The notes under the pieces were generated by a model. The model saw only the letters and a list, made by a program, of their open reading frames with translations. It did not search any database and was not told where the DNA came from. DNA of 60,009 nucleotides from an uncultured Eubacteriales bacterium (GTDB lineage Bacteria; Bacillota; Clostridia; Christensenellales; Aristaeellaceae), in the NCBI GenBank assembly GCA_902801165.1, contig CADCHI010000030.1, positions 1 to 60,009 on the forward strand, in the 5' to 3' direction. The position numbers and the translations under genes are program-made. Shown piece after piece: positions 98-8,440 of this stretch; position 1 is the first letter of the stretch; the number at the start of each line of letters is the position of its first letter.

Positions 98-141
98 ATG
101 CCTGTTGCCTGTTGCCTGTTGACTCAGACAAATTCCAAGTT
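98..141 (-). repeat. Low-complexity purine-rich element after purD (truncated by IS end)
   Basis: On the minus strand this follows the purD stop codon. It opens with AACTTGGAATTTGT (128-141) and continues into repeats of the word CAACAGG until the IS boundary at 97. The same 14-base opening occurs at 25556-25569 next to another low-complexity tract, so the two appear to belong to one family. The remainder of the element seems to be displaced by the IS. Confidence 0.6.
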
Positions 142-1422
142 TCATCGCTTCCCCTTCAGTATCCCCAACGCCCGCTTGCCGATGTCGTGGCGGTACATCA
201 TGCCGTCCCAGCTGATTTCAGCAGCAGCTTTGTATGCCTTGTCGATGGCGTTTTCAAGGGTGTCGGCGGTGCAGGACACGCCCAGCACGCGGCCGCCGGC
301 GGTGACGTACTCGCCCTTGTCGTTCAGGGCGGTGCCGCTGTGATAGACCTGGGCCATCTGGTCGGCATTGCCCATAGAAATGACCTTGCCCTTCTCATAC
401 TTGCCGGGATAGCCGCCGGAGGCCAGCATCACGCAGCAGGCCGCGCCGCCTTCAAACTCCACAGGCGTGTCGGCAAGGGTCTCGCTCTCCACCGCCCGCA
501 TGATGGTCAGCAGGTCGGATTTCAGCAGCGGCAGCACCACCTGGGTCTCGGGGTCGCCGAAGCGGCAGTTGTACTCGATGACCTTGGGGCCGTCCTTGGT
601 GACCATCAGCCCGAAGTACAGGCAGCCCTTGAAGGGGCAGCCCTCGGCGTTCATGGCGGCGATGGTGGGCAGGAAGATCTCCTTCATGCACCTTTCGGCC
701 ACCTCAGGGGTATAGCAGGGATTCGGCGCGATGGTGCCCATGCCGCCGGTGTTCAGGCCGGTGTCGTTGTCCCCGGCGCGCTTGTGGTCCATGGAGGACA
801 CCATGGGTTTGACCACATGACCGTCGGTGAAGGCCAGCACGGAGACCTCAGGGCCCTCCAGGAACTCCTCCACGACGATCCTGCTGCCGGACTTGCCAAA
901 CACGCTCTCCACCATGGCGGCGGTGACAGCGGCCTCGGCGTCCTCACGGGTGAAGCATATCACCACACCCTTGCCCAGGGCCAGGCCGTCGGCCTTGACC
1001 ACCAGCGGCAGCGGCGCGTCCTTGACATACGCCAGCGCGGCCTTCGGGTCGTCGAACACCTCGTAGGCGGCGGTGGGAATGTGGTACTTCTTCATCAGGT
1101 CCTTGGCGAACACCTTGCTGGCCTCAATGCGGGCGGCCCTGGCGTCCGGGCCAAAGCAGGGAATGCCCAGCGCGTGGAGCTTGTCCACGCAGCCCAGCGC
1201 CAGCGGGTCGTCCGGCGCGACCACGGCGAAGTTCACCGGGTTGGCCTTGGCGTATGCCACGATGGCGTCGATGTCCGTGGCCTTGATCGGCACGCAGGTC
1301 GCGTCCTGCGCGATGCCCGCGTTGCCCGGCAGCGCGACGACTTCCGTGACCTCCGGGTTTTCCTTGATTTTGCGAATGATGGCGTGCTCGCGCCCGCCGC
1401 CGCCGACGACCAGTATCTTCAT
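142..1422 (-). CDS. purD: Phosphoribosylamine--glycine ligase (GAR synthetase)
   Basis: Joins phosphoribosylamine to glycine with ATP to make GAR, the second step of cytosolic de novo purine synthesis. The start at 1422 gives the typical N-terminus MKILVVGGGGREHAI, with the glycine-rich loop of the PurD N domain, and has a GGGGAGG ribosome site. The ATP-grasp core is recognisable, including the segment with GGMGTIAPNP and the metal/ATP-binding stretch around EYNCRFGDPE. At 426 aa it is full length. The start overlaps the preceding gene's stop as ATGA (1419-1422), so translation is probably coupled. It is the last gene of the operon read from about 9.15 kb. Confidence 0.97.
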   Translation of the reverse strand: MKILVVGGGGREHAIIRKIKENPEVTEVVALPGNAGIAQDATCVPIKATDIDAIVAYAKANPVNFAVVAPDDPLALGCVDKLHALGIPCFGPDARAARIEASKVFAKDLMKKYHIPTAAYEVFDDPKAALAYVKDAPLPLVVKADGLALGKGVVICFTREDAEAAVTAAMVESVFGKSGSRIVVEEFLEGPEVSVLAFTDGHVVKPMVSSMDHKRAGDNDTGLNTGGMGTIAPNPCYTPEVAERCMKEIFLPTIAAMNAEGCPFKGCLYFGLMVTKDGPKVIEYNCRFGDPETQVVLPLLKSDLLTIMRAVESETLADTPVEFEGGAACCVMLASGGYPGKYEKGKVISMGNADQMAQVYHSGTALNDKGEYVTAGGRVLGVSCTADTLENAIDKAYKAAAEISWDGMMYRHDIGKRALGILKGKR

Positions 1423-2096
1423 GGCGTCTCCTCCCCTGCCTGCAGGCAAAAGTGTTCTTCCAGGATGGCCAGCGTCGCCTCCGGCGAGCGGGCGTCGTCC
1501 CGCTTCACCACGAAAAAGCCGCTGTCCTCGTATCTTCGATAGTTTTCCGGGCTGTTGATCCGCGCCAGGATCGCGCGGTAATTCGCCAGCGTCGCCTCCG
1601 GGTCCTCCGACTCCAGCATGCGCTGGTACAGGAACTGCTTCTCCGCGTCCGGGCGTTCAAAGAAGCGGCTCACGGACACGTCCGGGTCCGCCAGCATCAC
1701 CGCGACGCGGCGGTAGTCGGAGATCGCCCGCAGGGCCTCCAGCGGAATGTTGGTGTCCACGAACACCATTCGCCCGCCCTCCGTGCGCCGAATCAGCTCC
1801 ACCAGCTCCAGCGCCGCGCCTTCCACGGCGCAGCCCTCGATCCACGCCGCGTACTGCTCCGGCGTCCGGTTCACGAACTCCTGCCAGCCGGACATGGTCT
1901 GGAAATAGCAAAGGTTCGGCTGGTGCTTTTCGTCGACCAGCCCGAACAGCTTTTCAATGTAGTTTTCCCCGCACCAAACGCCGCCGTGCTTCTCAGCCAG
2001 CATGCGCACCATGGTGGACTTTCCCGCGTAGGCCGTGCCCGTGACGAAGTACACGTTTTCAAACAGCCGCCGCAGGATGTTGTCGTCAATGTTCAT
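1419..2096 (-). CDS. P-loop NTPase / kinase-like protein in the purine operon
   Basis: A 225 aa protein of unknown function. The N-terminus carries a Walker A motif (GTAYAGKST, about residues 15-23), and a hydrophobic strand ending in VFVDTNIP (about residues 108-115) could be the Walker B-like or nucleoside-kinase acidic strand. The layout suggests a small-molecule kinase or a P-loop ATPase of the adenylate-kinase-like group. The start at 2096 leaves the Walker A motif close to the N-terminus; its ribosome site is weak. It lies between purH and purD and overlaps purD by four bases (ATGA), so it is almost certainly co-expressed with purine genes. A role in purine metabolism is inference from position only. 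Confidence 0.75.
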   Translation of the reverse strand: MNIDDNILRRLFENVYFVTGTAYAGKSTMVRMLAEKHGGVWCGENYIEKLFGLVDEKHQPNLCYFQTMSGWQEFVNRTPEQYAAWIEGCAVEGAALELVELIRRTEGGRMVFVDTNIPLEALRAISDYRRVAVMLADPDVSVSRFFERPDAEKQFLYQRMLESEDPEATLANYRAILARINSPENYRRYEDSGFFVVKRDDARSPEATLAILEEHFCLQAGEETP

Positions 2097-2236
2097 GGCG
2101 TCTACCCGTGTCCGGGCTTCCAAAGACCGGCTTCTCGGCCTCTCACCGACCGCACCGATGTCCACATCGTCACAGCCGGGAATCATGGGGCCGAAAGGCC
2201 GCGCTTTGAAAGCCCGGACAAGCAATCCCTCGGATC

Positions 2237-7581: not shown

Positions 7582-7692
7582 ACGAATACCTTTCGCTCCT
7601 TTGATGGTTGGAAAAACAGGACCCGTTACCTGCCCTTGAAAGCAACTTACCGCTTTGGCAAGGCGAAGCGCTCCAATCCAAAATAACTTTCT

Positions 7693-7729
7693 GACTGTTG
7701 CCTGCTGCCTCTTGCCTGTTGCCTTTTTC
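7693..7729 (-). repeat. Low-complexity tract after purC
   Basis: Immediately after the purC stop the minus strand reads AGGCAACAGG, AGAGGCAGCAGG and similar words. The rest of the purC-purF gap up to 7582 looks ordinary and holds no gene. The same word occurs after purD, about 7.6 kb away. Confidence 0.6.
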
Positions 7730-8440
7730 TCACTTTCCGGTCAGCCTGCGCATGACCTCCTGGTAGGCGTCCTCGACGCCGCCCAGGTCCCTGCGGAAGC
7801 GGTCCTTGTCCAGCTTTTCGCCGGTGTCCTTGTCCCAGAAGCGGCAGGTGTCGGGGCTGATCTCGTCGGCCAGCACGATGATGCCGTCGGGCAGGCGTCC
7901 GAACTCCAGCTTGAAGTCCACCAGGGTGATGTTCAGCTTCAGGAAGTAGTCCTTCAGCACCTCGTTCACCTTGAAGGCGTAGCGCTCGATGGTGTCGATC
8001 TCCTCCGCCGTGGCCAGCTTCAGCGCCAGCGCGTGGTAGCGGTTCAGCAGCGGGTCGCCCAGGTCATCGTTCTTGTAGGAGAACTCGATGGTCGGCGCGT
8101 CGAACACGATGCCCTCTTCCACGCCGTAGTGCTTGGCAAAGCTGCCCGCGGAGATGTTGCGGATGATGACCTCCAGCGGCACGATGGAGACCTTCTTCAC
8201 CAGCGTGTCGCGGTCGCTCAGCTCCTTCACAAAGTGGGTGGGCACGCCGTGCTGCTCCAGCATCTGCATCAGCATGTTGCTCATGCGGTTGTTGATCGCG
8301 CCCTTGCCGGCGATGGTGCCCTTCTTCAGGCCGTTGAAGGCGGTGGCGTCGTCCTTGTAGGAGACGATGTACAGGTTCTCATCGGCGGTCGCGTAAACCT
8401 TCTTGGCCTTGCCCTCATAGAGCTGCTTCAGCTTTTCCAT
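7730..8440 (-). CDS. purC: Phosphoribosylaminoimidazole-succinocarboxamide synthase (SAICAR synthetase)
   Basis: Joins CAIR and aspartate with ATP to give SAICAR. The N-terminus [18 protein letters not shown] and the segments [14 protein letters not shown] (about residues 88-101) and LVDFKLEFG (about residues 172-180) are typical of PurC. The ATG at 8440 is preferred because GGGAGG sits nine bases upstream; an in-frame ATG at 8446 is only three bases from it. The 236 aa length is normal. Confidence 0.96.

Follow-up and report, generated by a model that had tools for sequence, protein, structure and literature searches.

The stretch analysed here, referred to as the window, comprises 60,009 nucleotides of contig CADCHI010000030.1 from an uncultured Eubacteriales bacterium and carries in its first part a purine operon encoded on the minus strand. 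The genes purC, purF, purM, purN, purH and purD are named as in a preliminary description of the sequence, which reported short purine-rich tracts on the transcribed strand after purC, purF, purN, purH and purD. All five tracts are present, and all are tandem arrays whose period is 7 or 14. They appear to be the arms of hairpin elements located between cistrons, the complete copies of which would enclose a gene of the 23S rRNA intervening sequence protein (IVP; PF05635/TIGR02436, four helix bundle protein).

The arrays of the operon, all on the minus strand, are located as follows: (i) at 7690–7730, about 6 nt past the purC stop, an array of the GGCAACA type followed by AGTCAGAA; (ii) at 6132–6169, a single GGAGTGT array spanning the region from the purF TAG to 5 nt before the purM ATG; (iii) at 4343–4476, in the purN gap, an element composed of an arm overlapping the purN stop (4428–4476, GGAAACA/GGGAAAA), a core (4384–4427) and an inverted arm of the GGCAACA type (4343–4383); (iv) at 2230–2407, between purH and the next gene, an element with the words AGAGTTA/AGAGTTT/GGAGTTA, whose arms lie at 2373–2403, about 4 nt past the purH stop, and, inverted, at 2237–2267; (v) at 95–127, a GGCAACA-type array situated 14–20 nt past the purD stop, depending on where the array start is set. 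The purF and purN TAG codons continue directly into an array; for purD, the reported position at or next to the stop is generous. The array at purF–purM plausibly provides the purM ribosome site, as judged from the sequence. Overlapping gene pairs were said to be free of tracts, which holds for purM/purN; this says little, because an overlap leaves no gap to carry one.

The repeated words first noticed are real arrays, but their 7-nt unit had been overlooked, as had the second, inverted array at the other end of the purH and purN gaps. A full element between convergent genes, at 25383–25559 on the plus strand, had also been missed; it consists of a GGAGTTT/GGAGTGT arm, a core of about 100 bp and an inverted arm. 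The arrays are paired facing inward, with a purine array at the left, a core, and a pyrimidine array at the right. Since such a pair reads alike on both strands, the stop-side array is purine-rich in the mRNA in either orientation of the element; the purine-rich orientation reported earlier is thereby explained, the tract being one arm of an inverted pair and not the element itself. Arrays without an inverted partner also exist, for example after purF. A scan of the window for periods from 4 to 15 (15/16 matches) yielded runs only for period 7 (n=3) and period 14 (n=2). The purH-gap element falls below the threshold of the array listing and is visible by direct reading and in a tandem-repeat scan.

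The heptamer period is a property of intergenic DNA throughout a sample of 854 kb, equal to 24% of the 3.55-Mb genome and consisting of parts of contigs C1–C5 and C7–C10 together with the window. The contigs were chosen by contig number after a first hit list had been seen, and C10:20001-40000 was already known to bear hits. Gene calls were home-made, and the caller missed purN and the IVP gene at C7:97847. The thresholds were 14/16 matches for the period scan of the sample, 12/14 for the array listing, the gap occupancy by gene orientation and the gap comparison with the sister genome G016, and 11/14 for the inverted-pair listing, the arm pairing, the count of genes with flanking tracts, the tract scans of IVP loci and the Bacteroidota scan. 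Period 7 gave 78 intergenic runs against 1 coding run, period 14 gave 59 and 2, and period 21 gave 19 and 26, respectively, while each of the other periods between 4 and 22 that are not multiples of 7 gave 0–3 intergenic runs. When all 854 kb were resampled once under a Markov-1 model, 1 run was obtained at period 7. The 15-mer GGCAACAGGCAACAG, with at most one mismatch, has 142 matches genome-wide, and its reversed control has 1. The word classes are GGCAACA, GGGAAAA/GGGAACA, GAGAATT/GGGAATT, GGAATTA/GGGATTA, GGAGTTT/GGAGTGT and AGAGTTA, and they can succeed each other in phase inside one array. The preliminary description had allowed for ordinary low-complexity spacers, unchanged in close relatives and no more frequent than in shuffled sequence; the counts are far above chance, and the relatives differ.

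The position and orientation of the arrays follow the direction of transcription. Among gaps of at least 60 bp, arrays occupy 49/302 tandem, 4/78 convergent and 0/85 divergent gaps (tandem against divergent and convergent, Fisher 3e-6 and 0.01, respectively). The rule of a purine array near the stop and a pyrimidine array near the start is followed by 69 of the 77 tracts in tandem gaps (binomial 3e-13). Sense arrays overlap the stop or lie within 6 nt of it in 17/38 cases, one further sense array having received a false distance of 607 nt through the missed purN (true distance zero), and 24/39 antisense arrays end 9–50 nt before a start. Arms of the same gap pair at a mean of -31.7 kcal/mol, compared with -21.1 kcal/mol for arms of different gaps (0/10000 permutations as good), and share a word class in 18 of 30 arm pairs (permuted mean 5.4, maximum 14 in 5000). 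In the predicted RNA folds, the two arms of the purH gap pair with each other (z -3.3, 0/200 shuffles as good); the fold of 25383–25559 reaches z -4.3 (0/200) and that of the purN gap z -2.3 (6/200).

These properties bear on the proposal that the arrays are neutral heptamer microsatellites, produced by polymerase slippage and tolerated in spacers. Slippage was proposed by Mrazek et al. 2007, as reported in PMC4679880 and PMC4692102. Point changes among the units and the in-phase mixing of words inside one array agree with it, and in many genomes no other long simple repeat is as common as the heptamers, according to work cited in PMC4679880. Slippage alone, however, gives neither inverted pairs of matching words nor exclusion from divergent gaps, and it gives no dispersed cores between arms, no narrow arm length and no association with a protein family, all of which are described below. 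The proposal is therefore very improbable and hard to maintain as the only cause, and the production of the words by local slippage alone was rejected in view of the inverted pairing, the cores, the gap bias and the IVP association. A reading of the arrays as G-quadruplexes was likewise set aside, since many words have no G runs, e.g. GGCAACA, GAGAATT and GGAGTTT. Palindromes that straddle stop codons were considered as a general feature and rejected: stems of at least 8 occur in 3/42 tract-followed genes and in 4/632 others. The individual examples are real; perfect palindromes straddle the stops at C8:3860-3885 and C3:20428, with the end of the coding sequence as the left arm, and others occur at the matching gap in G014, G017, G011 and G022, where the arms co-vary between species.

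The cores are dispersed. That of the 25383–25559 element has three further near-full copies, 91–97% identical, and one partial copy, and the GGCAACA-class core is matched 52 times (E of 0.001 or better), in many cases only in part; the segment 4353–4425 after purN is one of these matches. Matches to the GGCAACA 15-mer vary widely within the genus, from 446 in G001, 142 in the window genome and 55 in G012 (mostly one compound word) to 0 in five species; 32 genomes outside the genus have 0 or 1 each. In G016, which shares about 93% identity with the window genome over 54 aligned blocks, 101 gaps could be paired: 87 hold arrays in neither genome, 9 in both, 3 only in the window genome and 2 only in G016. 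Two of these five one-sided cases are threshold effects, as the purH gap of the window and the purN gap of G016 hold arrays by eye. The most frequent word is common to both genomes in 3 of the nine shared gaps, and at least one further gap has closely related words (GGGAATT vs AGAATTG).

Individual gaps differ in content between related species while the flanking genes remain collinear. The purF–purM gap holds an IVP-coding element with AGAGTTA-type arms in G016 and a single GGAGTGT array in the window genome; across the genus, where 16 of 25 loci were readable, arrays of several words are present at 10 and absent at 3, the remaining 3 being weak. The gap at C8:3874-4130 contains a 257-bp element in the window genome, and the 27 readable related loci comprise 9 with 1–5 nt between stop and start, 9 with arrays of various words and 9 with other sequence (both gaps were counted by eye). 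In G023, G025 and G027, this same gap, which precedes the C8:4133 gene, is filled by a different hairpin with GGGGACGGTTCCTTAT. The comparison of close relatives, suggested in the preliminary description, thus revealed elements that are absent, or replaced by another word, at one and the same gap, and the idea of a spreading intercistronic family is supported by the dispersed cores, the empty sites and the different words at one gap. Its variant of local regeneration found no support, as a change of word may equally be the replacement by another element or an exchange of gap alleles by recombination.

The last possibility belongs to a broader alternative, in which the elements are immobile host RNA hairpins, retained by selection because they stabilise the mRNA, separate cistrons or space ribosomes, and whose gap alleles are exchanged by homologous recombination. 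The stop–start position in tandem gaps, the stable predicted folds and the collinearity of the flanking genes while the gap word changes are consistent with it. It does not account for near-identical cores at unrelated gaps, nor for the tight junctions in 9/27 loci, where the gene pair manages without an element, nor for the gene of one protein family between the arms. We regard it as quite unlikely.

The gene in question was found in the purF–purM gap of G016, where a small gene lies between the arrays. Its protein and those of three relatives (four proteins scanned) match PF05635 and TIGR02436. For one IVP, the only solved relatives at E 0.001 are 2gsc (best; XCC0516) and 2rld; the former we take to be a Xanthomonas campestris protein, which would fit the organism of the Xanthomonas heptamers discussed below. 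PF05635 gave 42 hits in 20/28 genomes of the genus, including 2 in the window genome; the element copies inside the window are non-coding. The analysis covered 41 of the 42 hits (a second fragment of one gene was dropped), and the trees used 40 and 32. Period-7 tracts are present on both flanks of 33/41 IVP loci, and matched inverted arrays (score of at least 16) join the flanks of 32/41, compared with 0/36 for displaced flanks and 22/300 for mismatched flank pairs (29/300 in another random draw). The arms are narrow in length, the longest tract beside the IVP gene measuring 36–45 nt in 61 of 71 tract-bearing flanks. At 34/41 loci, the end of a co-directional frame of at least 70 codons falls somewhere from 9 nt within the upstream arm to 35 nt ahead of it; some of these frames may not be in the phase of the true gene. 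The recurrent sites are gyrB–gyrA, the gap preceding purB and a small number of further ones (named by reading of peptide ends). In the predicted fold of the G016 purF–purM gap, the arrays close the IVP frame (z -4.05, 0/100 shuffles as good).

The word of the arms is associated with the lineage of the enclosed protein. On a tree of 32 proteins, the word label requires 14 changes for 15 words, which is the minimum (shuffled mean 23.9, 0/200 as low). Protein similarity is correlated with word distance (rho -0.46, 0/2000 permutations), a correlation that persists when only pairs from different sites are taken (rho -0.25), and with site (rho -0.51); the GGGAGTA word accompanies closely related proteins at two different sites. 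The motif GCTGCCG, found in 11/30 non-coding cores, 6/41 IVP loci and 122/2827 random intergenic stretches, weakly suggests a link between coding and non-coding copies.

The association extends beyond the genus. The exact 21-mer AGGCAACAGGCAACAGGCAAC occurs in at least 109 stretches, and the 80 matches listed include cyanobacteria, Oscillospiraceae, other Clostridia, Treponema, Phycisphaerales, Latescibacterota and others, a result that indicates spread and not frequency. Twenty genomes were picked from these matches, 15 of which have PF05635; in this set, chosen for holding an array, matched inverted arms flank 24/30 IVP loci (mismatched 8/300, displaced 0/28). The words include GGCAACA in Okeania, GGGAACA in Moorena and GGGTAAA in Nostoc, and the unit is 8 at some loci. 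Unselected samples consisted of the best-scoring hits, one per genome, from the phylum of the window genus (PF05635 in 73/398 genomes; 29 of 30 loci, the own genome being dropped) and from the Bacteroidota (PF05635 in 116/148; 30 loci), with mismatched controls drawn at random. Matched arms were found at 14/29 loci of the phylum (mismatched 4/300, displaced 0/28), with period 7 or 14 in 13 of the 14 armed loci, and at 9/30 loci of the Bacteroidota (mismatched 1/300, displaced 0/30), where tracts on both flanks have period 7 in 7/30 and period 8 in 3/30, with none at displaced flanks. In the cyanobacterial sequences L156, L158, L162, L172 and L215, GGCAACA arrays are embedded in hairpins or dispersed elements of their own, and a single array may pass in phase from one word to another, from GGGAGTA to GGCAACA or from GGCAACA to GGAAAGA.

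It may be asked whether the enclosed protein takes part in the spread, or whether an unrelated transposase or host recombination moves the elements while the PF05635 gene travels along as a passenger or is of the addiction type. Arrays do occur in genomes without a detected PF05635 gene, and the window genome has two Y1 transposase genes (Y1_Tnp hits), the kind of transposase that accompanies REP palindromes in REPIN/RAYT systems. A passenger role agrees poorly with the same gene family lying between arms in several phyla. Other genes were rejected as cargo: 2 of 674 called genes have tracts on both sides within 160 bp, and neither is convincing, since one seems to be placed between two distinct elements and the right tract of the other is doubtful; the count is incomplete because of the two genes overlooked by the caller (purN and the IVP gene at C7:97847). 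The passenger explanation is considered unlikely.

We therefore consider it probable that the tracts form the arms of hairpin elements which lie between the cistrons of mRNAs, are for the most part non-coding and resemble the intervening sequences (IVS) of 23S rRNA. A complete element would consist of an array of about four heptamers, a PF05635/TIGR02436 gene and an inverted array of the same word, and most copies would have lost the IVP gene or never had it, carrying a short non-coding core instead. Within a transcription unit, the element is situated directly behind a stop codon, and the two arms are predicted to pair into a long stem in the transcript. By analogy with rRNA IVS, this stem would be cut by RNase III, parting the cistrons, and the host gene pair would for that reason tolerate the element. 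Such cistron separation would explain both the tolerance in operons and the absence from divergent gaps, which hold promoters. The company of protein and arms suggests that recognition of the arms, and with it the spread, may depend on the IVP or on a partner of it, and that non-coding copies may be moved in trans.

A number of observations weigh against this explanation. Within the genus, 9/41 IVP loci remain below the threshold (two of them run off the contig end and one scores 14), as do 15/29 loci of the phylum and 21/30 of the Bacteroidota in the unselected samples; the Bacteroidota arms are degenerate, with a clear period (7, 14 or 8) in 5/9. A PF05635 gene was undetected in 8/28 genomes of the genus, of which at least G002, G018, G019 and G021 carry arrays, which may be due to incomplete drafts or gene loss. 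A quarter of the window genome already contains 86 arrays, whereas the genome as a whole has 2 IVP genes. The tree that relates words to proteins omits 9/41 loci, 14 of its 29 inner forks have support below 80, and the GGGAGTA group has a support of 21; moreover, the congruence also follows from plain linkage and is no proof of recognition. Finally, with regard to a classical MITE, which has terminal inverted repeats and a target-site duplication, inverted ends and dispersal are observed for the elements, no duplication is visible at the one clean empty site, and no insertion product was seen.

Other repeats were encountered in the same sequences. A second dispersed intergenic family, with the ends AGAGTGTGTTTCTAAA and TTTAGAAACACACTCT, is found in the window at about 60–98, at C1:49928, C2:130845 and C9:58102, in G018 and elsewhere; one of its ends abuts the array after purD, and another copy lies inside an array-bearing gap in G018. 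Inverted copies of a GATCCTTCGCTTCGCTCAGGATGAC-like sequence (C1:78958-79281, C2:134423-134640, L139) differ between sister genomes, and GGAAAACGGAACGTTTTCCGGGTCGG repeats (C8:73770-74203 and C1:49928-50023) vary in copy number between them. Longer tandem repeats of the window are situated at 33388–33578 (59 bp x 3.3), 34308–34392 (26 bp x 3.3), 39031–39199 (46 bp x 3.7) and 50081–50750 (348 bp x 1.9).

Compared to known systems, the elements share features with two groups of heptamer repeats, and the statement of the preliminary description that no bacterial element of this structure had been described is in part wrong. In the excerpts of PMC4692102 (Rehm et al. 2015), the heptamers GGGAATC of Xanthomonas and GGGGAYT of Nostoc/Anabaena form convergent inverted pairs, close after the upstream open reading frame, and are under-represented between divergent genes. 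The arrays of the window genus show the same pattern, i.e. inverted pairs close after a reading frame and rare in divergent gaps, and have in common with these repeats the 7-nt units, mixed words, mostly about four units and variability between relatives. PMC4692102 interprets its heptamers as G-quadruplex formers with an unknown role, whereas many words here lack GGG runs, although GGGAAAA and GGGATTA do carry the GGG run of the Xanthomonas/Nostoc type. In contrast to the present elements, the excerpted account includes neither core families nor a protein partner. The TAACTGA heptamers of Beggiatoaceae and cyanobacteria (MacGregor 2015, PMC4679880) are likewise intergenic direct repeats distributed across distant phyla. 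These, as excerpted, are located mostly before starts in one orientation, with one inverted case in the main genome and no link to an IVP. The phrases "four-helix bundle" and "23S rRNA intervening sequence" are absent from PMC4692102 and PMC4679880.

The second relationship is that to the 23S rRNA IVS, represented by the IVS of Coxiella (PMC4990558), which contains an S23p/IVP gene, is described as selfish and lies in helix 45; its terminal inverted repeats form a 28-bp stem and it is cut out by RNase III. The protein family and the terminal inverted repeats forming a long stem are common to both. The present elements differ in their location in mRNA gaps, their heptamer-built arms and their many non-coding copies. 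A PF05635/S23p gene is present in complete copies only, stem-forming inverted repeats are seen in 32/41 genus loci and in the predicted folds, and the neighbours are protein-coding by their peptide ends, no rRNA search having been run on the loci. PF05635 also resembles the Avd protein of diversity-generating retroelements (PMC10053308). Two of the four scanned IVPs match the Avd model weakly, below the cut-off (E 2e-4 and 3e-4). A reverse transcriptase as general partner was rejected, since RVT_1 was found in 2/8 genus genomes tested and is absent in the other 6; it is lacking in G001, where GGCAACA matches are more numerous (446) than in any other of the 60 genomes counted. Cyanobacterial small dispersed repeats and STRRs, the subject of Elhai 2008 and Mazel 1990, reportedly include small mobile repeats associated with heptamer arrays.

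Heptamer inverted pairs after stops, heptamers in scattered phyla and IVP genes inside rRNA inverted repeats are already published. The link between heptamer arrays and PF05635 was not found in the literature searched, which is no proof of novelty, as subscription papers and Elhai 2008 lay outside it. With some doubt, we tentatively suggest that the heptamers of cyanobacteria, Xanthomonas, Beggiatoaceae and others may be the arms of one ancient, mRNA-borne IVS superfamily, in which the IVP/Avd-like protein of complete members would recognise its own word and spread would occur without a classical transposase. Should the proposed link between arrays and IVP genes hold, two long-standing puzzles of bacterial genomes, the unexplained heptamer repeats and the widespread IVP genes of no known function, would have a common answer: the IVP would gain a candidate substrate in the heptamer stem, the repeats would gain a candidate maker, and many operons would be predicted to be cut at heptamer stems.

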